Origin: a bacterium
Lineage (GTDB): Bacteria; Vulcanimicrobiota; Vulcanimicrobiia; Eremiobacterales; Eremiobacteraceae
DNA length: 34,403 nt
Direction: 5' to 3'
NCBI GenBank assembly: GCA_902812405.1
Contig: CADDZI010000025.1
Location: 1 to 34,403, forward strand
In this document: piece by piece, positions 3,530 to 34,329 of the stretch
Position numbering within the stretch: the stretch's first letter is position 1
Layout: each line of letters begins with the position of its first letter
Notes under the pieces: model-generated
What the model was told of the DNA's origin: nothing
Seen by the model: the letters and a program-made list of their open reading frames with translations, nothing else
Database searches by the model: none
Made by a program: the position numbers and the translations under genes

Positions 3530-6500
3530 TCATGGCGCGTTCGTGTTGTCGGCCCCGGTGTCGTCTGTCTCTTGCCCGCCCTGGGGTGCGGTCTCCGCGA
3601 CCCCGCTGTCCGGCTGCACGCCGGACCCCGTCGTAGGCCCACTGCCGGTATCCGTAAACCACGCGGCATCCGTCTCCCCGCCCAGCGTGACATGCTCGCC
3701 CTCACCTACCGGCCTGCCGCCCGCATCCGGTGCCCAGCCAACCTCCGCCGCAGTGGATCCTTCCGATCCGGGCGCCGTGTGCGCCTCACCCGCAACGGCT
3801 TGGGCTGTGTTTGCGCCAGTCGCTCCGTCGCGTGGCGGCGCAGCGCGCTCGTTGCGCCCCTCTTCCCCGGACTGTCTGGCTTCGGTTGCGACGCCGCCGT
3901 TTGATCCCGGCGCCGGGAGGTCGGCGAAAATATCGGCCTCGCGGAAGGCGGGGCGCCCCTCGACCGTCACCCGGACCGACCGGTAACGAGGCATACCGGT
4001 CCCGGCCGGGATCAGCTTGCCGATGATGACGTTCTCCTTCAGACCCAACAGCGGGTCGTACTTACCCTCGACCGCCGCCTGGGTCAGAACGCGGGTCGTC
4101 TCCTGGAATGACGCCGCGGACAAGAACGACTCGGTCGCCAGAGATGCCTTCGTGACCCCCAGGAGAACCGTGTCGGCGCGTGCCGGTTCGAGACCCGCCG
4201 CGACCGCCTTGGCGTTCTCTTCCAGGAACTTCTCGGCGTCCAGCATCTGACCCGGCAAGAGCCGCGTGCCGCCGCTGTCCGTGACCTTCTTCTTGCGCAG
4301 CATGCTGCGCACGATCACCTCGATGTGCTTGTCGTTGATATCCACGCCCTGGCTGCGATAGACCTTCTGCACCTCTTGAACGAGGTAGTTCTGCAGCGCC
4401 GTTTCCCCCTTGATGCGCAGGATGTCGTGCGGGTTGACGGAGCCTTCCATCAAGGGATCGCCGGCTTCCACGTGGTCGCCGTCGTGGACCGTCAGGTGGA
4501 CGTTCAACGGAATCTCGTATGCGTGCTCCTCACCGGCCGCGTCGGTCACAATGACCTCGCGCATGCCCTTCTCCTCGACGATGCGGACCGTACCCGCCTC
4601 CTCGGTGATGATGGCCTGTCCTTTTGGCTTGCGCGCCTCGAACAGCTCTTCCACCCGCGGCAGGCCGGTGATGATGTCCTCAGCCGCAACACCGCCCGTG
4701 TGGAAGGTGCGTAACGTCAGCTGGGTCCCGGGTTCGCCAATGCTCTGCGCGGCGATGATGCCGACGGCCTCGCCGATGTCCACCGGGCCGCCGGTGGCAA
4801 GATTGCGCCCGTAGCACACGGCACACACGCCAACCCGCGCCTCACACGTTAACACCGAGCGAATCCAGACTTCCCGAATCCCGGCAGCCACGATGCGCTC
4901 GGCCGCCTCCTCGACGATTTCGGCCCCCGCCGGCACCAGGACGTCCTGGCTGGACGGGTCCGTAATATCGTGCAAGGCATGGCGTCCAACGATGCGGTTG
5001 ACGAGAGGCTCGATGATCTCCTTACCGTCCGCGATATCGCGGACCGCGATGCCGCGCGCACTGTGGCAGTCCTGCTCGCGCACGATAACGTCCTGTGCAA
5101 CGTCGACCAGGCGCCGCGTCAGGTAGCCCGAGTCGGCGGTGCGCAGCGCGGTGTCGGCCAGACCCTTGCGGGCGCCGTGGGTGGAAATGAAGTACTCCAG
5201 CACGGTCAGCCCCTCTTTGAGGTTGGCCTTGATGGGGATGCTCAGAATCCGCCCCGACGGGTCGGCCATGAGACCGCGCATGCCAGCGATCTGCTTGACC
5301 TGTGCGATCGAGCCGCGCGCCCCCGACGTCGCCATCATGAAGATCGAGTTGAGCGGATCCTGCTCGCGCAGCATCGCCTGCGTCACGTCCTCGCCGGTCT
5401 TGGTCCAGACCTCGATCGTCTTCGTATACTGCTCGTCGTCCGATAGCAAGCCCTGGTTGTACAGCTCGTTGATGCGCTGAACCTCCGCCTCGGCTTTGGC
5501 AATCAGCTCCGGCTTGTTCTTGGGGATGACGATGTCGCTAATCGAGACCGTCGTTCCGGACAGCGTCGCGAAGCGGAAGCCCAGGCTCTTGATCTGGTCG
5601 AGAAACTCCGCCGTCTCCGCGTTTCCGTAGCGGCGGTAGCAGTCAGCGATGAGCTGTGTCAGGCCCTTCTTGTCCACCGTGTGGTTGACAAACGGATGCT
5701 GCCAGCGATCCGGAAAGGCCGAGTTGAAAATCACGCGCCCGACCGTCGTCTCGAGCAGCTCACCGCCGCGCCAACGGACGCGGATGGGCTCGTGCAGGGA
5801 GATGGCGCCCGCCTCGTACGCCAGCAGCGCCTCGCGGTCCGAGACAAACGCACGCGGTGCCGCCGCTTCGCGCCGCGACGGCATCCCGCCCGCGGTGGCG
5901 GCGTCGATCGTCAGGTAGTACAGTCCCAAGACCATATCTTGCGTCGGGATCGACACCGGCGTTCCGTACGACGGCTGGAGGATGTTGTTACTCGACAGCA
6001 TGAGGACGCGCGCTTCGGCCTGAGCGCCGGCCGACAGCGGCAGGTGAACGGCCATTTGGTCGCCGTCGAAGTCCGCGTTGTACGGCGTACACACGAGAGG
6101 GTGGATCTGGATCGCTTTCCCCTCGACGAGCACGGGCTCGAAGGCTTGGATGCCCAGGCGGTGCAGCGTCGGGGCGCGGTTGAGCAGCACCGGATGGTCT
6201 TTGATGACCTCGTCGAGGACGTCCCACACCTCCGGACGCACCCGCTCCACCATGCGCTTGGCGCTCTTGATGTTGTGCGCTTGGCCGCGGTCCACGAGCT
6301 TCTTCATGACGAACGGCTTGAAGAGCTCGAGCGCCATCTCTTTGGGCAAGCCGCACTGGTGCAGCTTCAGATTGGGTCCGACGACGATCACCGAGCGCCC
6401 CGAGTAGTCGACGCGCTTACCGAGCAAATTCTGGCGGAACCGGCCCTGCTTGCCCTTGAGGATATCCGAGAGCGACTTCAACGGCCGGTTGTTGGGACCG

Positions 6501-7417
6501 GTGACCGGCCGGCCGCGCCGGCCGTTGTCGATGAGCGCATCCACCGCCTCCTGCAGCATGCGCTTTTCGTTCTTAATGATGATCTCGGGCGCCGACAGCT
6601 CGAGCAGCCGCTTTAACCGGTTGTTGCGGTTGATGACACGCCGGTACAGGTCGTTGAGATCGGAGGTCGCAAAGCGGCCGCCGTCCAGTTGCACCATCGG
6701 GCGCAGTTCGGGCGGAATGACCGGCACCGCCGACAGAATCATCCACTCCGGCTTGTTGCCGGAGTGCAGGAACGCCTCGACGACCTCCAGCCGCTTGATG
6801 GCCTTGATGCGCTTTTGCCCGGTCGTCTCGTTGAACTCCCGGCGCAGCTCGGCCTGCAGCTTGTGCAGGTTGAGGTCCCGCAGCAGCTCGCGCACCGCTT
6901 CCGCACCCATCCCGGCGCGGAACGCATTGCCGTACTTCTCGCGGTACTCACGGTACTTTTGCTCGGTGAGGACCTCGCGCCGCTGCAGCGGTGTCCCGCC
7001 GGGATCGATGACGATGTAGGCCGCAAAGTAGATGACCTTCTCCAGCTGACGCGGCGACATGTCGAGGAGGATGCCAATGCGGCTGGGGACGCCCTTGAAG
7101 TACCAGATGTGGGAAACGGGTGTGGCCAGCTCGATGTGCCCCATGCGTTCCCGGCGCACCTTAGCGCGGGTGATCTCGACGCCGCAGCGGTCGCAGATCA
7201 TCCCCTTGAACCGGATGCGCTTGTACTTGCCGCAGTGGCATTCCCAATCTTTGGTCGGACCGAAGATCTTCTCGCAAAACAGGCCGTCCCGCTCGGGCTT
7301 GAGAGTCCGGTAGTTGATCGTTTCTGGCTTTTTGACCTCGCCGAACGACCACGCGCGGATCTGCTCCGGGCTGGCCAGCCCGATGCGCATCGCATCGAAG
7401 TTATTGACGTCTACCAT
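3530..7417 (-). CDS. rpoC: DNA-directed RNA polymerase subunit beta'
   Basis: Encodes the beta' subunit, 1295 residues. The N-terminus [20 protein letters not shown] leads into the first zinc site (CHCGKYK then CDRCG, near residues 60-78). The catalytic loop [12 protein letters not shown], whose three aspartates bind the active-site magnesium, lies near residue 450. The bridge-helix and trigger-loop region (SGARGS, then [21 protein letters not shown]) and the second zinc site (CHSARG, then [11 protein letters not shown]) are intact. The last roughly 128 residues, after [10 protein letters not shown], form a Gly/Ala/Thr/acidic low-complexity tail not normal for RpoC. It starts at ATG 7417, 74 nt after rpoB, with AGGTGAGAGAAG upstream. 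The only promoter seen for it is the one before rpoB. Confidence 0.98.
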
Positions 7418-7491
7418 TGTGCGTGTCTTCTCTCACCTGTTGACTGGAAAAAGCGCGCGGGCACCGTCCGCCGGCTCGCGCCGCCGGTGCT

Positions 7492-11331
<3,840 letters not shown>

Positions 11332-11540
11332 CCTGTCGCTTATCACCTTCGCAGTGGAATGCGCACCCCGGGATGACGGATCATGCGCGACGGGGCAACG
11401 GCGTGTTTTCCTGCGCCCGGCCGGATCCGCGCCGGGCGGCATACGGCGTCGTGGCTACGGTTCGTGTGACTGCTTCACGCGTGAGCGCGGGCCTGACAAA
11501 AGAAAAAGTGGACGGCGCCGCCGGTTCCGAGTACGGCTAG

Positions 11541-14117: not shown

Positions 14118-15572
14118 TTACGGCCGGCGGCCGACGTCACGCCGAGCCGGTGTGCCCTGCACCGACATCGCCTTGCGGCGGAACTCTTGATACGCACGCA
14201 GGAAGGCGCTTGCCGCCGCCGCGTGATCGACGATGGGCCGCGGATAACTCTGCGGCGTAAAGAACCCCAGCTCGGTCTGGCGCCGATGTTCAATCTCCCA
14301 GGGCGCGAAGATGAGTGCGGTCGGTAAACGAGCCAGTTCCGGACAATAGCGCCGAACATATCCGCCTTGCGGATCGAAAAGCATAGCTTGGCGGATGGGG
14401 TTGTAGATGCGTGGGTACGCCGCTTGATCCGACCCGATACCCGCCAACCGCTCCCAGTTTCCACTGCACAGCGCGGGATCCGCTTCGAGCATTTCGCGCA
14501 GGAAGTGGTCGCGCCCGGTTTTCCAATCCAAGCCCAGGTCGGCAACGCAAAACGATGCGGCGACGATGGCGGCCCGTTGGTGGACGTAGCCCTCCATGTG
14601 CAACTGCCTCATTGCCGCGTCGACCAGCGGATAGCCGGTCATGCCGTCTCGCCAGGCTGCGAAGAAGCGTTCGTCGTTGGCTCCGTAAAAGCCGCGCATC
14701 GCCTCCTGGAGCGGTTCGTCAACGGTCCGGGGGCGCCAGAACGCAAGGTGGAGGTAGAAGTCCCGCCACGCGAGCCGTCGCAGGAAGGCATCCATGGAAA
14801 TGCGCTCCTGCTCGAGGGTCCACGAGCGGTTCATTCTTTCCTGCACCGCCCGCACGACGGCGCGCGCGCTGATAAGCCCGAAGCGCAGGTAGGGTCCGAG
14901 ACGCGACGTCGCATTGCGTGCCGGGTACTCGGCGTTGGCTCCGTAGTCGGCCGCCCGCGCAGTCACAAAGCGTTCCAGAGCTCGGGCGGCGGCGGCTTCC
15001 GTTGGTTCCGGCATGCCCGGCGGGCCCGGCGGGTTCTCCAACACGCCGGGAGTATCGTCCGCTCCGTCGGGAACGGCGGGGGGCACGCCCGGCGGTATCG
15101 TCAGGCTGCGCCAGGCCCGATAAAAGGGTGGAAACACCCGGTAACCCGCACCCGACGCCTGCTTCAGCGCGGCAATGCTCTCCGGTTCGAAGACCGCGTC
15201 GCAGCCGACGCGGACGAAGCGGATGCCAGCCGTTTGCAGAGCCGTCTCCACGTCTTTTTCGATGTCGCGCTCACGCGGGTCGAGGGCCCGCGCACAAAAG
15301 ACTGCCGACGCACCCAGCCGCATCGCAGCCGCGCAGAACGCTGTCGCCGGCTCGCCGTCCAGAACCGACAGCGTGGCATTGCGCGCCGCCAGCTGGGTGC
15401 GAAGCGCGCCCACGGCGGCCAGCACGAATCGCACCTGACGTTCGTTGAGGCCGCTCAGTTGCGAGCGGCACCAGACCGCAAAGACCGGCCGATCCCGGCT
15501 CGTCGCAGCGGCCAACGCGGGATTATCATCCAAGCGCAAATCGCGGCGAAACCAGAACAGGCTTTTGGCCAT
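14118..15572 (-). CDS. Photolyase/cryptochrome-family flavoprotein with altered lesion pocket
   Basis: A 484-residue protein, normal for class I CPD photolyases. The N-terminal alpha/beta antenna domain begins MAKSLFWFRRDLRLDDNPAL. The C-terminal FAD domain includes FLRRLAWRDFYLHL (near 263-276), GYPLVDAAMRQL, the VHQR segment, LDWKTGRDHFL and a CSGNWERLAGIGSD segment. Aligned by eye to E. coli PhrB, Trp277, Trp359 and Trp382 are kept. Glu274 is Arg (R266 here), Asn341 is Gln, Trp384 is Arg, and the Asn378 that faces flavin N5 is Cys. Light-driven repair is therefore not certain; a cryptochrome-like or other-lesion role is possible. ATG at 15572; a small hairpin with GGG in its loop abuts it. 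Confidence 0.88.
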   Translation of the reverse strand: MAKSLFWFRRDLRLDDNPALAAATSRDRPVFAVWCRSQLSGLNERQVRFVLAAVGALRTQLAARNATLSVLDGEPATAFCAAAMRLGASAVFCARALDPRERDIEKDVETALQTAGIRFVRVGCDAVFEPESIAALKQASGAGYRVFPPFYRAWRSLTIPPGVPPAVPDGADDTPGVLENPPGPPGMPEPTEAAAARALERFVTARAADYGANAEYPARNATSRLGPYLRFGLISARAVVRAVQERMNRSWTLEQERISMDAFLRRLAWRDFYLHLAFWRPRTVDEPLQEAMRGFYGANDERFFAAWRDGMTGYPLVDAAMRQLHMEGYVHQRAAIVAASFCVADLGLDWKTGRDHFLREMLEADPALCSGNWERLAGIGSDQAAYPRIYNPIRQAMLFDPQGGYVRRYCPELARLPTALIFAPWEIEHRRQTELGFFTPQSYPRPIVDHAAAASAFLRAYQEFRRKAMSVQGTPARRDVGRRP

Positions 15573-19130: not shown

Positions 19131-20033
19131 GCGCCTATGGCCTCGCGCCGGGCCCACCTCCGCACGCCGCCCGTAGGGCGCCGCGGAGCCGTGGACGACG
19201 TGCATGATCCATGCGATGCCGTCCACAACCCGCGGCCCATTACGTTCGAGAATGTCGTCCGACGGCGGGCTGTAGACGCGCCCGGCCTGGACGGCCCGCA
19301 GACTGCGCCAGGGCTCCTGCGCCCGCACCCGGGCCGTGAAGCCGACATCGCGCGCCACGATGATCGCATCCGGGTTGGAGCGCAAAAGCCACTCCGGGCT
19401 CACGTCCGGATAGGGCAAGCCTATCGAGCCGGCCACGTTCACCGCACCCGCACGTTGCAGCATATTGTTGATGAAGCTCGTGCGTCCCGCAGTAAACCCG
19501 GGAAGACCCAACAGAATGAAGATGCGTGGGCGGCCGGAATACCCGCGCACCCGGCGCGTGATAGCAGCCAGACGCCCGCGCAGCCGAGCGGACAACTCTC
19601 GCGCCTGGCGTTGCATGCGGCATGCCTCGCCAACCCCCGCAATGTCGGCCCACAGGTCGGCCAGTCCGCGGTTGGGCAGGTACCGGACGACGATGCCAAG
19701 CCGCGCCGCTGCGGCTCCTTCCGCCTCCTGATCGTGGAGAGCAAGCACAGCCGTCGGCCGCAGGGTCGCCAATCGTTCCAGATCGACGTGAGATAAGTCG
19801 GCCACGTGCGGCAACTCCGCCGCGGCCGGCGGGTAGTCATCAAAGGAGGTGTCGCCGACGAGCCGCCTCCCGCAACCGATGGCAAAGGCGATTTCGGTCA
19901 GGGACGGGGCGAGGCTGATGATGCGCGGCGCGGTGATGGCCGCCTGGGAAGGACGGCCCACAGGCGCCGAGCAGCCGCACGCCGCCGCGGCCAGCAGGGC
20001 CACGCTGGCACGGCGCCATACCGCGTGCGCCAT
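19119..20033 (-). CDS. btuF: Cobalamin ABC transporter substrate-binding protein
   Basis: A 304-residue periplasmic binding protein of the BtuF/FhuD class III fold. The N-terminus is a lipoprotein signal (ASVALLAAAACGC). Family motifs follow: RIISLAPSLTEIAFAIG (near 37-53), VGDTSFDDYPPAAAELPHVAD and DLERLATLRPTAVLA. The long inter-lobe helix is followed by PRIFILLGLPGFTAGRTSFINNMLQRAGAVN and SPEWLLRSNPDAIIVA. It delivers corrinoid to the BtuC-BtuD importer. The ATG overlaps the btuB stop as TGATG; a GTG one codon upstream is also possible. It is the last gene of the riboswitch-controlled operon. The last 20 residues are Arg-rich and atypical. Confidence 0.92.
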   Translation of the reverse strand: MAHAVWRRASVALLAAAACGCSAPVGRPSQAAITAPRIISLAPSLTEIAFAIGCGRRLVGDTSFDDYPPAAAELPHVADLSHVDLERLATLRPTAVLALHDQEAEGAAAARLGIVVRYLPNRGLADLWADIAGVGEACRMQRQARELSARLRGRLAAITRRVRGYSGRPRIFILLGLPGFTAGRTSFINNMLQRAGAVNVAGSIGLPYPDVSPEWLLRSNPDAIIVARDVGFTARVRAQEPWRSLRAVQAGRVYSPPSDDILERNGPRVVDGIAWIMHVVHGSAAPYGRRAEVGPARGHRRSSR

Positions 20034-22000
20034 CACTCCCGCGTGGCCAGGCGCAACGTCAGCGTCCGCCCGAGAACCGGATAGCCCAACACGTCCTCGG
20101 CGTTGTGGTTGTTCTCCAGATTGTCCAGCCGCACGGTCAACGCCAGAGAGCGGTTGATTCTCCTGCGAACGTGAATGCCGGTCATGACGTAGGGGCGCAG
20201 CAGTTCTGTATTCGCCTCATCCGCGAAGCGGCGGCCGACGAACACGCTCTGCAGCCCATACGACCACGGTCCGCGATCTACCCACGCGTCGAGCGAGGCG
20301 GTCGAGCTCGGCCGGTACAGCAGCCGGTTGCCCGCAAACTGCGGCGTTAGGTCCACCGCCCTCAGGTAATCGGTGTATGTCAGAGCCGCGTGCCCGTCAT
20401 GTCCGACATCCCGCTGCAGACTGAATTCAAGGCCGCGCACCCGTGCACGGCTGACGTTGAACGGTTCGACATCCCCAAAGGCGTCGATCGGGCGATTGAT
20501 GATGAGGTTCTCCGTGTCTTGGCCGAAGTACGCAAGCGTGGCGTTACTCGCAGCGCCGTGCTCACGCAGTCCGGCATCGAACGCCGCCGCATACTCGGGT
20601 GCCAGGTGCACGTTGCCGTAGCCCGGGTAGTACAACTCGTCCAGGTTCGGGCTGCGAAACGAGCGGCCGTAATTGAGCGTCACGTCGAGCGCGTGCGAAA
20701 GGTGCACGACCGCACCCGCACCCGGCACGTTCAGCGGTGTCGCGCCGGATGCGGTTTCCCGCCGCACGCCGGCCCAGACGACGAGCCGCGACCCCGGCGG
20801 CGCGAGTTCATCCTGCAGGTAGACGGCGCCGCGTGCATCCCGTGCCACGCACGGATGACTGACCGGCAGACCGGCGCAAGCGACCGGCGAGCCCGCGTAC
20901 GGCAGACCCGTAAACGCGTAGTCGAAGAGAGCAACGTCCGCCCGGACGTCGTAACCGGCCGTCACCACGTTGCCGCGCCCCGCACCAAGGGTCGCCCGGA
21001 CCGCCGCCGATCGTGAGGTTGCATTACCTTGCGTGTCGTACGGGAAGGGAGGCGTCGGATCGTAAAAGTGCAGCCGCCGGCCGCTGCTGCCGAACGCGAC
21101 GTCGATGTCGCCGTCGCGTAGGGGAAGGTCAAAGTCCGCCTCGGCACGCTGGTAGATGCGTATCTGTCGCGCTAAACCGCTGGGAGCGGACGCAGTACCG
21201 GGAGCACCCAGATCCTCGGCGTCGTTTTGCAGCATCAGCCCTGCGGCGACACTTCCCAGATGGGCGTTGACGTTGACGGCCGTGTCTTCCGTCTTGACGT
21301 CGTCGTTCGTGCGGACACCCGCCGGGTAGAACGCGCCGTACGCCGGATAGGCGAAGACATTGGCGGCCGACGCCGTCTGAGCGTCGATCCGTGTCAAGAG
21401 GTTAGGTGCTCCGAACGTCAGGCCAAGCCCCCGGGTGAAGGCGCCCTGGTAACCCCACTGACCGAAGAGGTTGAGATTGCCCCCGCTGACCGCCTGCTTC
21501 GTGATGATGTTGATCACGCCGCCGACGGCGGCACTGCCGTACAGAGTCGAGGCGCCGCCCTCCACCACTTCGATTCTAGCGATGAGATTGGTGGGTAGCG
21601 AGGAGAAATCGAAGACGCCTGTGTCTCCCTCGTTGGCCGGTTGACCGTTGATGAGAACGAGAGTCTGCTCTGAACTCGCCCCGCGCAGGGCGACCGTTGC
21701 GAGCGAACCGTACGGTCCGTACTGCGCGACGACGGCACCCGGGATGAAACGCAGCGCGTCCGCCGCAGTCGCGGCTCCCAGGCGGATCAGGTCGGCTCCG
21801 CTCAACGTCCAGACATCCCGCGGCGTCTCGTCGAGCAGCGTCCGATGCCGAGCCGCCGTCACGATGACCTGACCGATGCGCCGGGGTTGCGGCGAGGCCG
21901 TCGGGTTGGGCTGGGGCCCGAAAAGGCTCTCGGCCGCCGCAGTGGCGGCCAGCTGGCAGGCGACCGCGGCCGCCAGCGCAACACACAACAGATTCTTCAC
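20033..22000 (-). CDS. btuB: TonB-dependent outer-membrane receptor, BtuB-type
   Basis: A 655-residue outer-membrane beta-barrel starting at GTG 22000, with AAAGGAGG four bases upstream. Residues 1-25 are a signal peptide (VKNLLCVALAAAVACQLAA). A TonB-box-like GQVIVTAAR precedes the plug domain, which shows SGADLIRLGAATAADALRFIPG, VALRGASSEQTLVLING and IEVVEGGASTLYGSAAVGGVI. The rest is the barrel, with the conserved NYGRSFRSPNLDELYYPGYGN. It imports cobalamin or a related corrinoid using TonB energy. It lies 11 nt after btuD and overlaps btuF (TGATG). Its place behind a cobalamin riboswitch supports a B12 substrate. A TonB-dependent receptor implies an outer membrane. Confidence 0.93.
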   Translation of the reverse strand: MKNLLCVALAAAVACQLAATAAAESLFGPQPNPTASPQPRRIGQVIVTAARHRTLLDETPRDVWTLSGADLIRLGAATAADALRFIPGAVVAQYGPYGSLATVALRGASSEQTLVLINGQPANEGDTGVFDFSSLPTNLIARIEVVEGGASTLYGSAAVGGVINIITKQAVSGGNLNLFGQWGYQGAFTRGLGLTFGAPNLLTRIDAQTASAANVFAYPAYGAFYPAGVRTNDDVKTEDTAVNVNAHLGSVAAGLMLQNDAEDLGAPGTASAPSGLARQIRIYQRAEADFDLPLRDGDIDVAFGSSGRRLHFYDPTPPFPYDTQGNATSRSAAVRATLGAGRGNVVTAGYDVRADVALFDYAFTGLPYAGSPVACAGLPVSHPCVARDARGAVYLQDELAPPGSRLVVWAGVRRETASGATPLNVPGAGAVVHLSHALDVTLNYGRSFRSPNLDELYYPGYGNVHLAPEYAAAFDAGLREHGAASNATLAYFGQDTENLIINRPIDAFGDVEPFNVSRARVRGLEFSLQRDVGHDGHAALTYTDYLRAVDLTPQFAGNRLLYRPSSTASLDAWVDRGPWSYGLQSVFVGRRFADEANTELLRPYVMTGIHVRRRINRSLALTVRLDNLENNHNAEDVLGYPVLGRTLTLRLATRE

Positions 22001-22011
22001 GCGTCCTCCTT

Positions 22012-22749
22012 TCAGCCGGGCAAGCACACGACGTGTCCGAGCTCGGGATGGCGGTGCGTCGTTACCCGGACACCAAAGGCCTCCGACAGCGCGCGGGCTT
22101 CCAAAATCTCTTCAGGCGGTCCGCAGCTCAGACGCCCCCCGGCCAGCAGGGCAACGTCGTGCGCAAAGCGGGCAGCCATGGTCAGATCGTGCAGCGCCGC
22201 GACGACCGCCACGCCGTTTGCGGTAAGTTCACGCAGCAATTCCAGGACCTCTACGGCAAAGCGCAGGTCGAGGTGGGCCGTGGGTTCGTCAACCAGCAGG
22301 ATCCGTGCGTTGACGACGAGCGCGCAGGCAATCCAGGCTCGTTGCACCTCGCCCGCGCTGAGCAGCGACACCGGCGTCTGTGCGTAGCCGGCCAGCCCAC
22401 AGCGTTGCAACGCCTGCGAAATGGCCGACTCGTCCTGTGGTTGCGTCCTCCACACCCACGCTGCGCGCCGGGCCGAGAGCGCATACGCGGCAAGCTCCCG
22501 CGGCGTGACGTCCGGGGGCGGCGTTTGACCGCACACGACGAGTGCAGGCCGTGTCGCGGCTTCCACCCGTCCCGATCCCGGGCGAGCCAACCCGGCCAGC
22601 ACGCGCAGGAGCGTCGACTTTCCGCTGCCATTAGGCCCCACCAGCGCGACCAAGCGGCCAGCTCTCACGCCCAGCGAGAGTCCCGCAAACACCGCCTGTT
22701 CTCCGTATGCGAAGCTGACGTCGGCGGCCTTCAGAACTGCATCGCTCAT
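22012..22749 (-). CDS. btuD: Cobalamin ABC transporter ATP-binding protein
   Basis: A 245-residue ABC ATPase of the FecE/BtuD type. Walker A GPNGSGKST is at residues 38-46. The signature is SLLSAGEVQRAWIACAL (LSAGE in place of LSGGE), Walker B is ILLVDEPTAHLD and the switch His is in AALHDLTMAARFAHDV. It powers the BtuC permease. ATG 22749 overlaps the btuC stop as ATGA; the longer upstream frame is simply the btuC region read in another frame. Its stop lies directly before the btuB Shine-Dalgarno sequence. The spacing implies coupled translation of all four btu genes. Confidence 0.94.
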   Translation of the reverse strand: MSDAVLKAADVSFAYGEQAVFAGLSLGVRAGRLVALVGPNGSGKSTLLRVLAGLARPGSGRVEAATRPALVVCGQTPPPDVTPRELAAYALSARRAAWVWRTQPQDESAISQALQRCGLAGYAQTPVSLLSAGEVQRAWIACALVVNARILLVDEPTAHLDLRFAVEVLELLRELTANGVAVVAALHDLTMAARFAHDVALLAGGRLSCGPPEEILEARALSEAFGVRVTTHRHPELGHVVCLPG

Positions 22750-24932: not shown

Positions 24933-25464
24933 GCGCGTTCCCATCCGCATCTGCGTCAACGGTCAGCCGCGCGAGGCCTTCGTGGAGCCGGCGGCATCGC
25001 TGCTCGAGCTCGTGCGCGGTACGTTCGGCTTGACGGGCACGAAGGAGGGATGCGGCACCGGCTATTGTGGCGCGTGTACGGTCCTGCTCGACGGCCAACC
25101 GGTCAACGCCTGCCTCGTCTTTGCGGTGGACGCCGATCACCGTGATGTGCTCACGGTGGAAGGCTTGACGACTCACGAAGGCGGGTTGCATCCTGTCCAA
25201 GACGCGTTTGTGGCATGCGGTGCGCTCCAGTGCGGGTTCTGCACCCCGGGCATGCTCGTTTCGACGGTCGCTCTGCTCCGTCGCGTGCCGTATCCCAGCG
25301 AAGCCGATATTCGCGCGGCCCTGGCCGGTCATCTCTGCCGATGCACCGGATACCGATCCATCGTGCGAGCCGTCACGCGTGCGGCTGCGGCTCTTGCGGC
25401 CAATCCCGAGAATCCGGCCTTGCCACAGCCGGCTCGGCCGCGCGGCATGCGGTCCCGTGCCTGA
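24925..25464 (+). CDS. Molybdenum hydroxylase 2Fe-2S subunit (CoxS/XdhC-like)
   Basis: A 179-residue iron-sulfur subunit. GTG 24925 follows GGGGAG by four bases and overlaps the FAD subunit's end by 8 nt. The N-terminal plant-ferredoxin-type cluster is GCGTGYCGACTVLLDG (Cys near 43, 48, 51) plus the Cys in PVNAC (near 63). The C-terminal helical domain carries the second cluster, CGFCTPGM and HLCRCTGY (near 103-106 and 138-140). It relays electrons from the molybdenum centre to FAD. The C-terminal 30 residues (ANPENPALPQPARPRG) are an unconserved tail. The preceding open frame from 24517 is only a shadow of the FAD gene. Confidence 0.93.
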   Translation: MPKRVPIRICVNGQPREAFVEPAASLLELVRGTFGLTGTKEGCGTGYCGACTVLLDGQPVNACLVFAVDADHRDVLTVEGLTTHEGGLHPVQDAFVACGALQCGFCTPGMLVSTVALLRRVPYPSEADIRAALAGHLCRCTGYRSIVRAVTRAAAALAANPENPALPQPARPRGMRSRA

Positions 25465-27799
25465 AGCCATCCCCTCCGGCGGCCGGAGCGTCGTCGGCAC
25501 CCGCCATCCGCGCTCGGACGCCGTTGCGAAAGTACGCGGTGAGGCGGCCTACGTCGCAGATCTGACCTTTCCCGGCGCCCTGGAGGCTGCCGTCCTGCGC
25601 TCACCCCACCCCTTCGCCCGCATCAAGCGCATCGATGTGTCGCGAGCGGCATCGCTTCCCGGCGTCGCCGCCATTGCCTACGCCGGCAATACGCCGGCCA
25701 TACCCCTCGACTTTGCGATTAAGGATCAGTACCTGTTTGCCCGCACCTACGCGCGGTATGCGGGAGAGCCTGTGGCGGCCGTCGCCGCGCACACCAAGCG
25801 GCAAGCAGAGGCCGCACTGGCGGCCATTGATGTCGACTACGAGGTCCTGACTCCGGTCTTGAGCATTGACGAAGCACTGGCCCCGGGCGCGCCACTCGTG
25901 CATCCGCAGTGGCGGACATATGAGCGATCCGCAGGCCGTGTTCTCCGCGGCAACGTGTGTGGGTACAACCGCATCCGGCGCGGCAACGTTGAGCGGGCAC
26001 TCAAACGAGCTTGGGCGGTTGTCGAGTCCAGATTCACGTTCTCAGCGGGCATCCCGGGCTACCTCGAACCCAGAGCGGCCGTGGCCAGGCGAGAGCCTGA
26101 CGGAGGCTTGACCGTCTGGTGCGGCTCACAGTCTCCCTACAGCAACCGCGAAGAGCTGGCCGCTTTTTTCAACCTGCCTCTTGACAAGGTGCGCTTCGTC
26201 AACCAATTCGTCGGCGGCGCCTTCGGCGGCAAGATTCTGTTGGCAGCCGAGTGGTACGCGGCTGCGCTCGCATTGCAGTGCGATCGGCCGGTTCGTCTCG
26301 TCTTTTCGCGTCACGAGGACGGGCTGCACGTCTTTGCGCGTCACGGCGGCCGCGCCCTCATCCGCAGCGGTGTTGCGCAGGACGGCGGCCTGACTGCCAT
26401 GCAGGCATCGTTCGTTTTCGACGGCGGCGCATACAGCGGCTACGGCAACGGAGCCGCTCTCATCGCAACGATGCTCGTCTCCGCACCCTATCGCATTCCC
26501 AACCTCGATCTCGAAGCGACATTGGTCTACACCAACAAGCAGATCGCGGGCCCGGTACGCGCCCCCGGTGGACCGCAAGCGACGTTTGCCAAGGAAGTGC
26601 ATATCGATGAGGTCGCGGCCCGCGTCGGGTGCGATCCGGTAACGTTCCGCCTGCGCAACATGTGGGACGAAGAGGACGAAAGCCCGGCCGGTCAGCGGTT
26701 GCGCGGTGTCAGCGCCAAGCGCGTCCTCCAAGCCGCCGCCGACGCGATTGGATGGGGCACGCCGTGCCGGCCGAACCGCGGTCGCGGCATCGCCTGCTCG
26801 TGGTGGTTTTCCTCGTGCGGGCGATCCGAGGCCCGGGTCGAAGTCCGCGCCGACGGTTCGGTTCATGTAACCTCGGGCAATCCAGAGGTCGGTACAGGCG
26901 CGGCAACGGGTTCCCTGCCGATCATCGTGGCCGAGCACCTCGGCACGTCGCCGGGATCGGTCTTCTTGCACCTGGCGGATACGGCAGATGCGGCGTATGA
27001 CAGCGGGGTCGGCGGCAGCGCGTCCACGTTCTCCGCCGGCTGGGCGGTCCTGGCCGCTGCCCGCGACGTTCGCGAGCAGCTCCTTTCCGTGGCCGAGCAC
27101 GCGCTGGAAGCGAGGCGCGACGACATCGTGATCGGCGAAGGGCGGCTCTTCGTGCGCGGGTCACCCGAGCACGGCATATCCCTGGGAGAGGCGGCGGCTC
27201 TGGCCGGCGGTGTCGTGTGCGCGACAGGCGCGACTCCACAGATCGACGACCCCAGCCTCGAGCATCCGGCCCGACTCGAGCACCACGAGTTTGCGGCGTG
27301 GCTTGCGCCGTCGTTTACGGCCAGCGCAGCCGAGGTCCAGGTCGATCCTGAGACCGGCCGCGTGACCGTCGAACGCATCGTCACGGCCCAAGATGTCGGC
27401 ACGGCCATCGACCCGGCAGGCATTGAGGGCCAGATTGAGGGCGGGGCGGTCCAGGCACTGGGATTTGCGCTCAGCGAAGAACTGCAGTTTGGACCGCACG
27501 GCATCATGAACACCGGTTTGGGCGATTATCTCATGCCGACGATTGCGGACGCACCGGACATACAACCCATCATCATCGAGTCGCCTTCCCACGAGGGCCC
27601 CCTGGGCGCCAAGGGCGTGGGCGAGCCGCCGGTGACCACACCCGGTGCGGCGATCGGAAACGCAGTATACCACGCCACCGGAAACCCTCCCCACGATGTG
27701 CCGCTCACCCCCGAGCGCGTGTGGCGCGGGCTTGCGCAGTCGAGGGCAGACACGACGTCGGCCGCCGAATTCCCCCACGAAACAGCAAAGACGCGCTGA
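25457..27799 (+). CDS. Molybdenum hydroxylase large (molybdopterin) subunit
   Basis: A 780-residue catalytic subunit of the xanthine dehydrogenase/aldehyde oxidoreductase family. GTG 25457 overlaps the Fe-S gene by 8 nt. Family landmarks are GTRHPRSDAVAKVRGEAAYV (near 15), the molybdopterin-contact GGAFGGK (near 255), GPVRAPGGPQATFAKE (near 368) and GAKGVGEPP with the conserved catalytic Glu (near 721). The AYxCSFR loop of form I aerobic CO dehydrogenase is absent, so this is not a CoxL of that type. It should hydroxylate a heterocycle, aldehyde or related compound using water; the substrate is unknown. No accessory CoxD, CoxE or XdhC-type maturation gene follows. Confidence 0.93.
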   Translation: MPEAIPSGGRSVVGTRHPRSDAVAKVRGEAAYVADLTFPGALEAAVLRSPHPFARIKRIDVSRAASLPGVAAIAYAGNTPAIPLDFAIKDQYLFARTYARYAGEPVAAVAAHTKRQAEAALAAIDVDYEVLTPVLSIDEALAPGAPLVHPQWRTYERSAGRVLRGNVCGYNRIRRGNVERALKRAWAVVESRFTFSAGIPGYLEPRAAVARREPDGGLTVWCGSQSPYSNREELAAFFNLPLDKVRFVNQFVGGAFGGKILLAAEWYAAALALQCDRPVRLVFSRHEDGLHVFARHGGRALIRSGVAQDGGLTAMQASFVFDGGAYSGYGNGAALIATMLVSAPYRIPNLDLEATLVYTNKQIAGPVRAPGGPQATFAKEVHIDEVAARVGCDPVTFRLRNMWDEEDESPAGQRLRGVSAKRVLQAAADAIGWGTPCRPNRGRGIACSWWFSSCGRSEARVEVRADGSVHVTSGNPEVGTGAATGSLPIIVAEHLGTSPGSVFLHLADTADAAYDSGVGGSASTFSAGWAVLAAARDVREQLLSVAEHALEARRDDIVIGEGRLFVRGSPEHGISLGEAAALAGGVVCATGATPQIDDPSLEHPARLEHHEFAAWLAPSFTASAAEVQVDPETGRVTVERIVTAQDVGTAIDPAGIEGQIEGGAVQALGFALSEELQFGPHGIMNTGLGDYLMPTIADAPDIQPIIIESPSHEGPLGAKGVGEPPVTTPGAAIGNAVYHATGNPPHDVPLTPERVWRGLAQSRADTTSAAEFPHETAKTR

Positions 27800-28881: not shown

Positions 28882-31044
28882 CTATGTGGGGCACGACCGG
28901 GTCTCCAACTCGGACAACAGGTCATGGTCGCTTGCCCAATGCGGGGGGCGACCGAAGCCGCAGACCGCAGTCGTTTTCTCCCCGCGGCTCATCGCATAAC
29001 GCAGGACGCGCCGCTCCTCCTCGAGGTAGAGGTCCTTGGCTGCAAACTTTGCATAATACCAAGCGTATTTTGCCGTTTGCCCCGCCCCACGCGCAACGTT
29101 CTCGCGCACCAGAAGGCCAAACGTGCGGCTGAAGGCCAGCCCCTGCGGCACGTAGATGCGAGGGAAACGCTCCCATGCAACGCCCGCCACGATCACGTGA
29201 TCCCAGCGCAGCCCTTTACAGGACCCGATCCCTTCGACAACAATTGCACCCGGCACCGGCGCAGCCGGAGGCGGCGCAAGGACGTTCGCCTCCAGCCAAT
29301 CCTCGAACTCGGTAGCCGCATGCACGCCCGCAGCCTCGGCCGCACCCGCAACCGCACACAGCCGCCGTAGATCGTCTTCCGCCCGGCGTCCTTCCCACAC
29401 CGAGGCCGTTCGCCAGGCTTCCCGAAAACCGGCTGCGTCCGCCAGATATGCAAGTCTCGCGGCGAGCGGCCGCCCGTTTAGCTCCTTACGCCACCTCTCC
29501 AGGCAGACACGCAAGCCGGCCAGTGACTCTCGTGCCGTCGCAGGTAGGCTCTCGTCGACGCGTCCCTCATAGACGTTGGCAGCCAGTGTGTACGCCACGC
29601 GCGCCGCCGGCGAGCGCTCATGGGCCGGCGCACCCAGAGGCAGCATCTCCTGCTCATCGCGATCGCGAGACAGAAGCCACACACTTCTATCCGAAAGTCC
29701 GACAAGCGGCGATGATAGCACTCGCATGAGGTGTGCTTCGTCGCGCGGATCCTCGAGAACCGCCGCCAGCGCGACCAGATCGGCCAGGTCTTTCGGCCGC
29801 GCAAAAGCATTGGCCGGCCAGGCCGCGGGGATGTCGGCTGTGCGCAACGCCGCGGCGTAGCGGCCGGCGCTCTCGTGCGTTCGCGTCAGCACCGCAATAC
29901 GTTCCGGGGCGCAGCCGCCGCCAAGCAGCCTGTCGAGGTGCCGGGTCAGCCAGGCGACTTCGGACTCCTCATCTGCGCAGCGCACGACGGCCGGTTCATC
30001 GGAGGACGCCTGCGGCGTCATCAGGATGCGGCGTGCATCCGAAAACGCCGCCAAAAGCGAACGCCGCCCACCCAAACCGGCAATGCGCGAGCCGTCGAAT
30101 CCGGCAGCGATGAGGGCAATCTCGCGAACCGCGCGAAGCGCACCGACAATCTTGGGCAGCGCCGGCTCGGCGTCTTCCGCGTCGTCAACAACCAGGACGT
30201 CGATCTCGCGTGCGACGGCCCGTGCGGCAGCCGTATCCCGTTCCAACCAGTCCCAAAGGCACGCAAGGATGTCCTCAGCTGACCGGACGGCGGCCCCCCG
30301 CGCGGCCAGCCTGTATTCCCGGAAGAGTTCAACCAAAAGGCGGACCAGCTCGCGCTCGCCCCGGCGCTGCTGCACGAGGGCCTCGCGCGGCGCACGCAAG
30401 GCAGCACGACCGCGCCGGCTCGCCCGCCGCGCGACCTCGGGATCAGCCAGCAAGCTGAGCGCGCGCTCGACATCCTCGCCGTAAAACGCTCCCAGGCCGC
30501 GCAGACAGCCTTCCTCAAACTCGTCCGGCGTCACGCAGGCTCGTGCCAGCAGCTCACAGAGTACCGCCGCTTCGTCCAAGAGCGCGTGAGGCCGCGAGAG
30601 GTAGGGCACGTCCAGGCTCAGGTCACCGTTGGCGAACATCTCCCAGGACATGGCAAACAGTCCGTGGGCAGCCTGCTCGAGAATGCGGCGCGTAGCGCCT
30701 CGGCCGCCGAGGACAAGATGCGGCGACACGCCGGCCCCGATGCTTCCCGAGTGCAGCCACCGCGCAGCGTGCTCTGCGAGAGTCGCACACACGCTTAAAC
30801 AGCTAGGCTGCGCGCCCGCCCTGACCAATGCGGCTGCGAAGGCTTGCTGCGCCGGGGGGTTGGCAACCACGACCAGCGGACGCCGTCCGCTTCGCCACAG
30901 CCGATCGACGCAAGCCGCCAAGAGTGACGTCTTGCCCGTCCCCGGACCGCCCACCACGAGGATCGTTTCCCCGGGCTCGACGGCGCAGATGTCATCCAGC
31001 GGAGCGAGGCTCGCGTCGCGTGACTCGCCACGTTTAGCGCGCAA
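28882..31044 (-). CDS. UvrD/AddA/AdnA-like DNA helicase
   Basis: A 720-residue superfamily 1 helicase. TTG 31044 is chosen because GGAG lies 7 nt upstream and it overlaps the nuclease gene by 11 nt; the frame further upstream is only the nuclease read out of frame. Walker A GGPGTGKTS is at 32-40, and Walker B is VLVVDDAEDAEP (near 283) with Asp for the usual Glu, as I recall in mycobacterial AdnA. Motif V-like GIGSCKGLRWDHVIVAG and motif VI EEERRVLRYAMSRG (near 678) are present. It is much shorter than AddA (about 1200) and lacks a nuclease domain. With the adjacent nuclease it probably forms a double-strand-break end-processing complex; a defence role is also conceivable. Confidence 0.88.
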   Translation of the reverse strand: MRAKRGESRDASLAPLDDICAVEPGETILVVGGPGTGKTSLLAACVDRLWRSGRRPLVVVANPPAQQAFAAALVRAGAQPSCLSVCATLAEHAARWLHSGSIGAGVSPHLVLGGRGATRRILEQAAHGLFAMSWEMFANGDLSLDVPYLSRPHALLDEAAVLCELLARACVTPDEFEEGCLRGLGAFYGEDVERALSLLADPEVARRASRRGRAALRAPREALVQQRRGERELVRLLVELFREYRLAARGAAVRSAEDILACLWDWLERDTAAARAVAREIDVLVVDDAEDAEPALPKIVGALRAVREIALIAAGFDGSRIAGLGGRRSLLAAFSDARRILMTPQASSDEPAVVRCADEESEVAWLTRHLDRLLGGGCAPERIAVLTRTHESAGRYAAALRTADIPAAWPANAFARPKDLADLVALAAVLEDPRDEAHLMRVLSSPLVGLSDRSVWLLSRDRDEQEMLPLGAPAHERSPAARVAYTLAANVYEGRVDESLPATARESLAGLRVCLERWRKELNGRPLAARLAYLADAAGFREAWRTASVWEGRRAEDDLRRLCAVAGAAEAAGVHAATEFEDWLEANVLAPPPAAPVPGAIVVEGIGSCKGLRWDHVIVAGVAWERFPRIYVPQGLAFSRTFGLLVRENVARGAGQTAKYAWYYAKFAAKDLYLEEERRVLRYAMSRGEKTTAVCGFGRPPHWASDHDLLSELETRSCPT

Positions 31045-33040
31045 AGATCCGCTCCGTATCGATCGGCCTCTCGCGACAGGCGCGGTTGTACAAACAGTGG
31101 CCGCAGGGCGGGCTCGCCCCGGCGACAAAGCGCTCGTATCCGCGCTTGGTCAGGGTATCGCATGTTTCCAGGAGTGCGCTGAGCGCGATTTCGAGGTCGC
31201 GCTCGTTGCACGGTACCGCGACCACCCCCTCAACTGCGGGCGCGTGTTCCTCTCCCTCGCGAACGACGTCCAGCGCCAGCAGCCAGACCTCATCTTTCGG
31301 TTCGCGCAGCGACACGAGAGCCACCCGTCCGACCCGCTCCCCGGCTGCCGTGCGCATTGCGTAGTACAGGGGCAGTTGCGCTTCGGTACCCTGTCGCACC
31401 CGCTCCAGGTAGGCCTCGGCGTCCCCTTCGATGCGTCCGGTCTTATAGTCGTAGATGCAGGTCGGGCCTCCTCCGAGCGGCCGATCGATGCGATCGATGA
31501 CGCCGACGAACTCGTGATCGCCGAAGCGTGCGCGTTGAACCACTTCCACGCCGGCAATCTCGACCGGCCTGCGGGCCGCTTCGGCGGCCAACCACCGCAC
31601 GTACTGCTCGGCCATGCGCCGGGCCTTGACCACCGAGACCGCATACTCCAGCGCACTTGGAAACGCATCTCGCCGCTGCGCAAACGCCTGCTGGATCTCG
31701 CTGTCGAGGCGCAGGAGGATATCCGCCGCGGCGTGCCGGCTGGGAATACGCACGTCACGGTGAACGGCCTCCAACGCGGCGTGCATCGCCTGCCCGTAGG
31801 CGGCCGCGGGTGATCCCGGGTCGGGTAGCACGTCACACAGGTACTCGTAGAACCACCGGCGCGGGCACTGCGCATGCGTATTGAGGCGGGAAGCCGAAAA
31901 TGTCATCGCCGGCGCCGTAAGCGGCTGGGGCGTTTCCGGCACAGGCCATGTCCGCGTGACGCGCGCGCCGTTCCCGGCAAGAGCGGCGGCTGCCGTTGCA
32001 TCGGCCACCGACGCCGTGACGTGCACGGTCAGCCGTCCGCCGTAGGCCCCGCCGAGCAGCGCTTCATCCAGGCCCAAGGCATCTGCGAACAGCGCGAGGT
32101 CGCATGCGGGTGCACACCCGTCTGCAAAAAATAGTCCGGCGCTATCCTCCAAAGGCACCGTCCCCTCCGCCGCACACGGTACGTCCGCCCACACGCGCTC
32201 GTCGCAGGCGTGCGCGAAAAGAATGAGCCGGGCACCCGCCGGCAACAGCGTCCGGTCGATGGTTTCCCACACGGCGTCCGCAAGCTCGGCCCAAGCGCCG
32301 AGCGGTGTGTGGGCCCAATCCATCCAGCCGCACGTGCAGGCTGCGTACGACACGGCCGTGCGCAGTGCATCCGGTCGGCCGGCCGCCGATCGAATCGCCG
32401 CGATTGCTTCTTCCACGCGGACGGCAGTCTCGCGTGCTTCGCTGCTCGGCCGGAGCCGGCTCGCCGACGCGTGCGCCGCCGGGCGTGTCCGTCCAGCTTC
32501 GGCGATCAGCGCGGCTTGCGCGGGATCCAGACCAAACGGTTGCGCTGTCACAGCCAGGCGGTATGCCTCACGGTCACCGTTTGCGGCAACTCGCAAGAGA
32601 TGAAGCATGGTCGACAGCCGTCCGGGACCGGGCCGCGCGAGGACGAAGCCGGATGGCAGACACACGAGCAGGCCGCTGCCACGCAGACGGCCGTGGGCTG
32701 TCGCCAGGTCGGGCACCTCCAGACGCACGCCATCCGTGGGGATGGTTGCACTCTGGGCCGGCAGGCCAGCCGCCCGCAGCCGCTGGCGTGCTCCATACAG
32801 GATCCGAGCCGCCAGCGACACCCCGGGACCCGCATCCGCCACCGCGCGGGCCAGATCGCCATCCGCTACGGCGAGCGCGTCCAGGGCGTCGCCCAAGCGG
32901 GCCAACCGCCCGATCGTCGCAACGTCGACCGCGGGTTGCGGACGGCCGCCCGCGCCCTCGCAGGCCCAGGCTGCCGCAACCGCCCAAAAGCGCGCCACAG
33001 CCGCTCTCCGATCGCAGCGCATCTGCGGTTGCTTGCTCAT
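31034..33040 (-). CDS. AddB-like Fe-S PD-(D/E)XK nuclease
   Basis: A 668-residue protein. The C-terminal third is a RecB/AddB-type PD-(D/E)XK nuclease: GVIDRID (near 511), IYDYKTG (near 530) and the QxxxY helix AQLPLYYAMRT. Four cysteines for a 4Fe-4S staple are one in QCPRRWFYEYL (near 392) and three in CGHCLYNRAC (near 647-656). The N-terminal 390 residues have no Walker A and look like a degenerate helicase-like scaffold. AddB is normally about 1100 residues, so this is compact. ATG 33040 lacks a good ribosome site. The gene lies 41 nt after the Fic gene and overlaps the helicase start, implying one operon. The proteins probably process broken DNA ends for recombination. Confidence 0.88.
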   Translation of the reverse strand: MSKQPQMRCDRRAAVARFWAVAAAWACEGAGGRPQPAVDVATIGRLARLGDALDALAVADGDLARAVADAGPGVSLAARILYGARQRLRAAGLPAQSATIPTDGVRLEVPDLATAHGRLRGSGLLVCLPSGFVLARPGPGRLSTMLHLLRVAANGDREAYRLAVTAQPFGLDPAQAALIAEAGRTRPAAHASASRLRPSSEARETAVRVEEAIAAIRSAAGRPDALRTAVSYAACTCGWMDWAHTPLGAWAELADAVWETIDRTLLPAGARLILFAHACDERVWADVPCAAEGTVPLEDSAGLFFADGCAPACDLALFADALGLDEALLGGAYGGRLTVHVTASVADATAAAALAGNGARVTRTWPVPETPQPLTAPAMTFSASRLNTHAQCPRRWFYEYLCDVLPDPGSPAAAYGQAMHAALEAVHRDVRIPSRHAAADILLRLDSEIQQAFAQRRDAFPSALEYAVSVVKARRMAEQYVRWLAAEAARRPVEIAGVEVVQRARFGDHEFVGVIDRIDRPLGGGPTCIYDYKTGRIEGDAEAYLERVRQGTEAQLPLYYAMRTAAGERVGRVALVSLREPKDEVWLLALDVVREGEEHAPAVEGVVAVPCNERDLEIALSALLETCDTLTKRGYERFVAGASPPCGHCLYNRACRERPIDTERIFAR

Positions 33041-33081
33041 CGCCGTTGCGGCCCGGCCCGCCTTAACGCCGGGCGAAGGAT

Positions 33082-34329
33082 TCAGGTGACCGATTGCGCG
33101 GCATTCTCCAAGAGCTCGAAGGACTCCGACACGCGTTCGCACACGAGCTTCAGCAAAAGCGACATGTCGCCGGCGTCGGCTTGACGCAGACCGTCGTAGT
33201 AGCGACTCCGATCCTCGACGCGGATGATCGCCGGCGGATACTGTGCACGGCACAGGACGAGGTTGGAGAGGAGGCGGCCGACGCGTCCGTTGCCGTCGAG
33301 GAAGGGCGCAATGTGGAGAATCTTGGCCTGCGCCGCGGTTGCCTTTGCCAACGGTTCGGCGGGCGATTCGTCAAGCCATTCGATGAACTCACGGAGCATG
33401 CCCGGAACGAGCGCGCTCTCAGGTGGCAAGTAGTCTCGGCCGACAAGCCGGTTGTCGACCCGGCGATACATCCCGGCGTTGTCATCATCGATAGAGGCAA
33501 AGAGGAGTGCGTGGAGTTCGCGAATGCCGTGCTCGGTCAGCGGAGCGTGCGAGAGTGCCAGAACTTCCGCGCGATCCAAAGCCCGGTTGAGATTGACGGC
33601 CTCCAGGTGCTCGCGCAGCGTCAATCCGCCGACAGTCGTCCCCTTGAGCACCACCTCTTCGGTCTGGTCTCGGCTCAAACGGTTTCCGCGGACTGCATTC
33701 GAGTGGTAGATTTCGTCCAAGCGCAACCGTAAACGGCACTGTGCCCGCGCTCGGGTTGCCGCCGGATGAGACGCAAACGCCTGCTGGCGGCAGCTCAGCT
33801 GCGCGAGCTGCTCTTCCAGATCGGCGTCGAACCGCAGTCCGGCAGCTTCTTCCTGTGCCCGGGCCGGCTGGTCCAGCCCCAACGCCGCCAGGTCTACGCC
33901 GTGTTCCGTCAGCCAAGCGAGCGCCATCGCCTCCAGACGGCGTTGGCGATACGCAAGCCAGGATCGGCGCGCTCGTGGGTAGGCTCCCAACAGCGCCAAA
34001 AATCGCGCGTTGCCGGCAGGCGAGGATGCGGCCTCGCGCAGACGCTGCGCCAAGTCCCCGTCGGTCAAGGTCTCGATGAAATCGTACATCACGGCACGGG
34101 CCTGCGCGTGCGAGAGAGGCAAGACCGCGATGACGTCCGCCCTGCGGGCGGCAGCCAGCGCAGCTGGGTCTTCAGCAGCATATGGCTCGACCCGGCCCGT
34201 CGTCAGGACAAAAAAGTAGCGGAACTGTCCGCTGCGGTCATCCAGCGCATCGGCCAGTTCTTCTAAGATGATGTTGCGCACGTGTCGACCGTCGCCGTGT
34301 TCGGCCGGCCGGCCGGGAAGGCCTCGCAT
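33082..34329 (-). CDS. UPF0158-Fic fusion protein with degenerate Fic active site
   Basis: A 415-residue two-part protein. Residues about 20-150 (YFFVLTTGRVEPY, MYDFIETLTDGDLAQRL, FLALLGAYPRARRSWLAYRQRRLEAMALAWLTEHG, each seen as separate blocks) resemble the UPF0158 family. Residues about 200-400 are a Fic domain: IYHSNAVRGNRLS, TVGGLTLREHLEAVN, HIAPFLDGNGRVGRLL and YPPAIIRVEDRSRYYDGL. Compared with the consensus HPFxDGNGR, the catalytic His is Ala341 (a His lies two residues earlier), while Asp345 and the GNGR loop remain. In the inhibitory motif SxxxEGN the Glu is Arg214. Normal AMP transfer therefore seems unlikely. ATG 34329 has no Shine-Dalgarno sequence; GTG 34281 is an alternative. 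First gene of the nuclease-helicase operon. Confidence 0.87.
   Translation of the reverse strand: MRGLPGRPAEHGDGRHVRNIILEELADALDDRSGQFRYFFVLTTGRVEPYAAEDPAALAAARRADVIAVLPLSHAQARAVMYDFIETLTDGDLAQRLREAASSPAGNARFLALLGAYPRARRSWLAYRQRRLEAMALAWLTEHGVDLAALGLDQPARAQEEAAGLRFDADLEEQLAQLSCRQQAFASHPAATRARAQCRLRLRLDEIYHSNAVRGNRLSRDQTEEVVLKGTTVGGLTLREHLEAVNLNRALDRAEVLALSHAPLTEHGIRELHALLFASIDDDNAGMYRRVDNRLVGRDYLPPESALVPGMLREFIEWLDESPAEPLAKATAAQAKILHIAPFLDGNGRVGRLLSNLVLCRAQYPPAIIRVEDRSRYYDGLRQADAGDMSLLLKLVCERVSESFELLENAAQSVT

Follow-up and report, generated by a model that had tools for sequence, protein, structure and literature searches.

Gene content of the locus

The window examined here, i.e. the whole 34,403-bp contig G000:C25 of a 2.32-Mb bacterial genome in 110 contigs, carries on its minus strand three consecutive genes, read as open reading frames (ORFs) from the window: a fusion of a UPF0158 domain to a Fic domain, followed by a nuclease of the iron-sulfur (Fe-S) PD-(D/E)XK type and a UvrD-like helicase of superfamily 1A (SF1A). 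The main subject is the Fic domain, which has lost the catalytic histidine and the inhibitory glutamate of its relatives in this and every orthologous copy found, while the gene itself appears to be kept by selection (Table 1). The four domains are recognized by Pfam with E-values of 2e-16 (Fic, PF02661), 2e-5 (UPF0158, PF03682), 1.1e-32 (PDDEXK_1) and 1.6e-14 (UvrD_C). An earlier, sequence-only reading of this DNA had described the three genes as consecutive on one strand with gaps or overlaps of +41 and -11 nt, which was confirmed when ORFs and coordinates were checked: the Fic stop codon lies 41 nt before the nuclease ATG at 33040, and the nuclease and helicase genes share 11 nt between the helicase TTG (31044) and the nuclease stop (31034).

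Table 1 Features of the pseudoFic-nuclease-helicase locus, in window coordinates
Feature	Position	Strand	Basis and remarks
UPF0158-pseudoFic gene, 399 aa, GTG start	33082..34281	-	Pfam PF03682 and PF02661; start chosen by conservation among 10 orthologues
UPF0158 domain, residues about 1-133	33883..34281	-	Pfam match; model of residues 1-142
Fic domain, FICD-like class II, residues 176-390	33112..33756	-	Pfam; FICD profile E about 1e-35; VIA Z 26.9 to C. elegans Fic-1
Inhibitory-helix motif SNAVRGN	33682..33702	-	Arg198 (33688-33690) in place of inhibitory Glu; Arg in 10/10
Fic loop APFLDGNGRVGR	33274..33309	-	Ala325 (33307-33309) in place of catalytic His; Ala or Ser in 10/10
Fe-S PD-(D/E)XK nuclease, 668 aa	31034..33040	-	PDDEXK_1; nuclease domain 31073-31903
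UvrD-like SF1A helicase, 720 aa, TTG start, without nuclease domain	28882..31044	-	UvrD_C; Walker A GKT; motif II VDDAED

The start of the fusion gene was corrected to GTG 34281 because the orthologues open with a conserved 'MRNxxLEEL...' and some of them lack any earlier start. The ATG at 34329 was rejected as start since it is not conserved among the orthologues; upstream of GTG 34281, 122 bases are visible before the contig ends. Across 149 genomes of the phylum, ten full-length fusions were found, each located directly in front of the nuclease-helicase pair and none outside the family. The conserved linkage that the sequence-only reading had asked for thus exceeds chance, where it has to be kept in mind that the ten orthologues share one ancestor and that "10 of 10" does not stand for ten independent events.

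In all ten loci a usable start codon follows 2-90 nt past the Fic stop. A simple scan of the 41-nt gap between Fic and nuclease in the window revealed neither a terminator-like site nor a sigma-70-like promoter on the minus strand, in a scan whose terminator totals are near chance (5 terminator-like sites versus 3.6 expected). Because of these closely spaced start codons, the gap without such sites and the conserved gene order, Fic, nuclease and helicase likely form one shared transcription unit, as the sequence-only reading had supposed.

A Fic domain without its signature residues

By sequence (PF02661, 61 bits versus a cut-off of 24) as well as by fold, the domain belongs to the Fic proteins of the Fido superfamily. 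Among solved structures, FICD and C. elegans Fic-1 come nearest, both recognized by profile comparison with E-values of about 1e-35, and a structure model of the domain (predicted local distance difference test score, pLDDT, of 81.5, with poorly predicted flap residues 265-289) superimposes on C. elegans Fic-1 with a VIA Z-score of 26.9 and a root-mean-square deviation of 2.7 over 232 residues at 27% identity. The window protein shares with FICD/HYPE and Fic-1, both class II AMPylases/deAMPylases, the layout of an inhibitory helix followed by the Fic loop, but differs from them in both active-site residues, in its N-terminal UPF0158 domain, in its bacterial origin and in its position in a DNA-processing operon. 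In the alignment, IYHTVAIEGN of FICD corresponds to IYHSNAVRGN of the window protein (IYHSNAxRGN in the orthologues), and IHPFIDGNGRTSR of FICD to I(A/S)PFLDGNGRVGR.

At position 325, where the catalytic histidine of the motif HPFx(D/E)GNGRxxR would be expected, alanine is found in four and serine in six of the ten orthologues, but histidine in none. The other residues of the motif are kept: P, F, L, D, G, N, G, R, V and the last R of the loop are invariant in the ten proteins, and the remaining G is present in nine. Likewise, the motif (S/T)xxxE(G/N), whose inhibitory glutamate characterizes class II autoinhibition and FICD-type deAMPylases, is replaced by SNAxRGN with arginine at position 198 in 10/10 orthologues. 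The degeneracy, already noticed in the sequence-only reading, is therefore real and no error of a single genome. His323 of the window protein, two residues before the lost histidine, was considered as a shifted base and rejected, as asparagine or serine occupies this position in the other nine orthologues.

Within a canonical Fic loop, two arginines bind the beta and gamma phosphates, the acidic residue (D/E) binds magnesium, the histidine acts as base and the second glycine makes space for the nucleotide, as described in PMC8401265. Since the residues for phosphate and magnesium are kept and the histidine is gone, the loop appears competent for ATP binding, yet not for AMP transfer. Fic-dependent modification, one of the functions put forward by the sequence-only reading, is in its AMPylation form not supported by this residue pattern, and the glutamate of FICD-type deAMPylation is missing as well. 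In addition, Arg198 and Arg201 lie on the same helix and are both present in all ten orthologues, which suggests that these added positive charges contact a phosphate. The target-binding flap (positions 276-289) is nearly invariant among the orthologues.

How unusual these replacements are was judged from control Fics of other organisms. Two peptide patterns that leave the residue before PFLDGNGR free had given 517 confirmed stretches, of which the best 80 were used. In these 80 named loci, 83/83 Fic motifs carry the histidine, and a loose pattern of the inhibitory-glutamate motif is present in 77 of the 83 control Fic ORFs. Twenty further loci of the same phylum (L143-L162) contributed 19 motifs, 17 with histidine and two with glutamine, and one locus without motif; in four phylum Fics inspected by eye, histidine and glutamate are both kept. 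The two exceptions, L157 and L159 of genus g47, read QPFxSGNGR where HPFxDGNGR is usual, so that the catalytic histidine may have been lost a further time in this phylum. Such Fics in one other genus (2/19 motifs) mean that the histidine loss is not unique. As far as the examined Fics go, the double change of histidine and glutamate is specific to the Fic clade of this family. Histidine loss by itself also occurs outside the phylum, as PMC8401265 gives the histidine in about 75% of the Fic domains of Bartonella Beps.

Selection on the Fic gene

Ratios of nonsynonymous to synonymous substitution rates (dN/dS) were calculated according to Nei-Gojobori for the five genome pairs that possess all three genes. 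Values of 0.060 for Fic, 0.145 for the nuclease and 0.120 for the helicase were obtained for G011/G012, and of 0.145, 0.297 and 0.324, respectively, for G006/G008; the Fic gene has the lowest ratio in all five pairs, three of which are distant and saturated in dS (above 1.4). On the protein level, identity to the window copy amounts to 64-71% for Fic, 40-46% for the helicase and 39-43% for the nuclease. Because it evolves more slowly than its two neighbours, the Fic gene is judged from these rates to be maintained under purifying selection and not to be decaying. That it might be the decaying remnant of a former AMPylator, as the loss of both active-site residues and the absence of Fic from one genus could imply, is hardly credible, given that Fic ranks below both partners in dN/dS in 5/5 pairs and, in identity, well above the 39-46% of helicase and nuclease.

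The same constraint can be read differently, namely that Fic is still an enzyme, transferring a nucleotide or a sugar onto the nuclease, the helicase or another protein independently of the histidine. Such an activity would fit a dN/dS of only 0.066 for the Fic domain itself (G011/G012) and the near-invariant flap, and structures of AvrB, one of them with UDP, are among the fold matches. AvrB is a Fido-fold effector that is reported to carry out a histidine-independent transfer of this kind, as a glycosyltransferase with a different donor. Still, four alanines and six serines in place of the histidine offer no common replacement base, and the rest of the loop keeps an ATP-type motif, so that a retained transferase activity is considered rather improbable.

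The UPF0158 domain

The N-terminal domain matches PF03682 with 25.1 bits (gathering threshold 21.1) over positions 61-143 of 157. The structure of residues 1-142, modeled alone, reached a pLDDT of 92.8; against the PDB it gave no Foldseek match below an E-value of 0.001 and no VIA-align match with Z of at least 5, which is no proof of a new fold. The protein thus has its domain in common with the UPF0158 family, but carries it fused to Fic, and no full-length fusion was returned outside this bacterial family. A second UPF0158 protein without Fic is encoded in genomes of the bacterial family in frames of about 330 aa (L052:2496-3485 on the minus strand of G000:C50; L012-L020).

The nuclease-helicase pair

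The nuclease motifs are intact: 34 of 35 aligned sequences show the D, DxK and Q of the RecB/AddB type together with the four cysteines, and in the one exception, which is cut by its contig end, the downstream motifs are visible. A sequence search of the PDB with the nuclease profile gave nothing at E 0.001. In case of the helicase, Walker A reads GK(T/S) in 33/35 aligned sequences, a 36th row being without these regions, and motif II has DD in 33/35 and DE in 2/35, with VDDAED in the window protein as opposed to DExQ of UvrD. In the window protein and in its family, motif III is without the usual glutamine. In Walker A of two helicases from genomes without Fic (L049 and L050, from G003 and G004), GKT is replaced by GMT, and a third Fic-less genome has GKT; the helicase dN/dS between G003 and G004 is still low (0.168).

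The combination of a UvrD-type motor with an Fe-S PD-(D/E)XK nuclease resembles AddAB and AdnAB, and partial matches to AddA, AddB, TIGR03623 and AdnB-like chains were obtained. Here, however, motor and nuclease reside on two polypeptides (about 720 and 668 aa), the nuclease gene comes first, a single nuclease domain is present and motif II reads DDAED. None of the curated cut-offs for AddA, AddB, RecB and TIGR03623 is reached by the pair, the helicase scoring 21.3 bits against an addA_alphas cut-off of 860.75 and the nuclease 62.7 against 299.6 for TIGR03623. An AdnAB-like pair with UvrD and PDDEXK domains in both proteins (1066 and 1120 aa) is encoded separately in the genome, as is a UvrD protein of PcrA size (727-aa frame), for which reason the nuclease-helicase pair is regarded as accessory.

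Distribution and neighbourhood

Within the family (14 genomes including that of the window), ten genomes have the fusion and 13 a strong match to the helicase. Three genomes, G003-G005, which belong to one genus and are 95-96% complete, possess nuclease and helicase in the same gene order with no Fic there; in G007 (72% complete) the helicase matches are only weak and a full-length Fic is missing. Beyond the family, 94 of 103 further genomes in the class match the helicase profile at an E-value of 1e-40 or better, as against E-values no better than 1e-11 in the 32 genomes of other classes. The nuclease adjoins the helicase in 21 of 22 sister-family loci, which had been chosen for their helicase matches, and is one ORF away in the remaining one (L202, G125), where a 443-aa ORF stands between the two genes that overlap elsewhere. 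The pair is an old class-wide unit. A locus search with the helicase alone as query yielded no confirmed locus. The helicase match of G013 (L026, G013:C32:9256-11493) contains one internal TAG.

Fic is no obligate part of this unit, because it is absent from the pair in the three family genomes and in 22/22 sister-family loci. Absence from the locus in relatives was one of the findings that the sequence-only reading had named as refuting its proposal, which is thus refuted by half. Fic may be an addition at family level or may have been lost in G003-G005; the helicase tree does not settle where the family is rooted and is compatible with a gain after the split of the Fic-less genomes as well as with a loss in them.

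Gene maps were drawn for 25 loci with a home-made choice of ORFs, leaving out L048, L042 and several sister-family loci. Loci with Fic show the order FecR-like gene, divergent sigma factor of the extracytoplasmic function (ECF) type, Fic, nuclease, helicase, usually a TonB C-terminal gene (identified by Pfam match) and a convergent gene which, from reading window ORF 25208-27799 and not from a search, we take to be of the xanthine-dehydrogenase type. This arrangement raises the question whether the pseudoFic, although co-transcribed with the pair, serves another process, either the divergent ECF sigma/FecR signalling or a general UPF0158 role. Wherever a mapped Fic locus includes an upstream flank (7 loci), ECF sigma and FecR divergently adjoin Fic, which together with the Fic-free UPF0158 protein and the sister families without Fic beside the pair agrees with such a bystander. 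The FecR/ECF sigma order is, on the other hand, kept in the three Fic-less genomes and so does not depend on Fic either, and no full-length Fic copy occurs away from the nuclease-helicase pair. A bystander role is viewed as unlikely.

Anti-phage defence with Fic as sensor and the helicase-nuclease as effector, which the sequence-only reading had offered as one of its options, is disfavoured by the same neighbourhood. The PADLOC models SoFic (1.5e-27) and PDC-S04 (4.1e-25) do match the Fic domain, and GajB matches the Walker A stretch of the helicase weakly (5.6e-7). These two Fic models, however, probably match Fic domains broadly, and the window protein has the Fic domain in common with SoFic and PDC-S04 but neither the catalytic histidine nor a defence context. 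Synteny is conserved at the locus, the pair extends throughout the class, and annotation of the neighbours gave ordinary types (sigma factor, FecR, gamma-glutamyltranspeptidase, TonB); in the sister-family locus L206, the pair lies near flavoprotein, MobA/IspD-like, GHMP kinase, GNAT and DNA polymerase IV-type genes. Among ten neighbouring proteins from two loci (L044, L206), Pfam revealed no defence family. Searches by tblastn gave 489 matching plasmid and 43 matching phage records, none with a match over 80% of the Fic protein; the matches listed cover the Fic part only. The locus looks like syntenic core chromosome with housekeeping-like neighbours and not like a defence island, and a defence function is thus very improbable.

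A nucleotide-responsive subunit?

The reading favoured here, tentatively and somewhat short of probable, is that the Fic protein is a pseudoenzyme acting as nucleotide-responsive regulatory or adaptor subunit of the accessory nuclease-helicase. The GNGR..R nest, which is intact, would allow the pseudoFic to bind a nucleotide, be it ATP or a different phosphorylated ligand, possibly with Arg198 as an additional phosphate contact; by touching the co-transcribed Fe-S nuclease and UvrD-like helicase, the pseudoFic would pass its nucleotide state on to them. The direction of regulation would accordingly run from Fic to the pair, and nuclease and helicase together would constitute an accessory machine for DNA-end processing apart from the AdnAB-like enzyme. 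As suggested by the sequence-only reading, nucleotide sensing and a link to DNA-end processing may both be involved.

Precedents exist for the single elements of this proposal. BepC, whose Fic domain is not known to have any activity, is able to bind AMPPNP and turns on a partner protein (PMC8401265); like the histidine-less Bartonella Beps, it uses a Fic fold with no known catalysis, but it is a secreted, host-directed effector with a lysine in place of the magnesium-binding acid and has not lost the histidine. The activity of CbFic2 is controlled by DNA binding (PMC10628234). For M. tuberculosis, PMC13309787 describes a dUTPase that modulates AdnAB, likewise a nucleotide-binding protein paired with a helicase-nuclease, although that enzyme is unrelated to Fic and its physical interaction was demonstrated.

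Several points weigh against the proposed subunit. Kept residues of an ATP loop are no proof of ATP binding, and the linkage of Fic with the pair may partly be phylogenetic inertia in ten genomes of one ancestor. The pair is presumably functional without Fic, as in the three family genomes and the sister families. Moreover, with motifs II and III off the UvrD consensus, the helicase may be a weak motor and the activity of the pair is uncertain.

A bolder version holds that the exchanges of histidine for alanine or serine and of glutamate for arginine went together and turned an AMPylator pocket into a nucleotide-sensing allosteric subunit which licenses DNA-end processing by the nucleotide state of the cell; this is conceivable but doubtful. 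Among the papers that the literature searches listed, mostly from outside the subscription journals, there was neither a Fic-helicase-nuclease operon nor a UPF0158-Fic fusion. Fic proteins are usually studied as transferases. If the proposed subunit role is true, the locus would represent a clean case of a chromosomal, apparently vertically kept Fic pseudoenzyme with an intracellular housekeeping role, and would give a handle both on UPF0158, a domain without known function, and on the control of accessory helicase-nucleases.

Apart from the genes discussed so far, the window contig carries rpoC, rpoB, a DNA photolyase and a TonB-dependent receptor (3530-11442, 14118-15572, 20033-22027).

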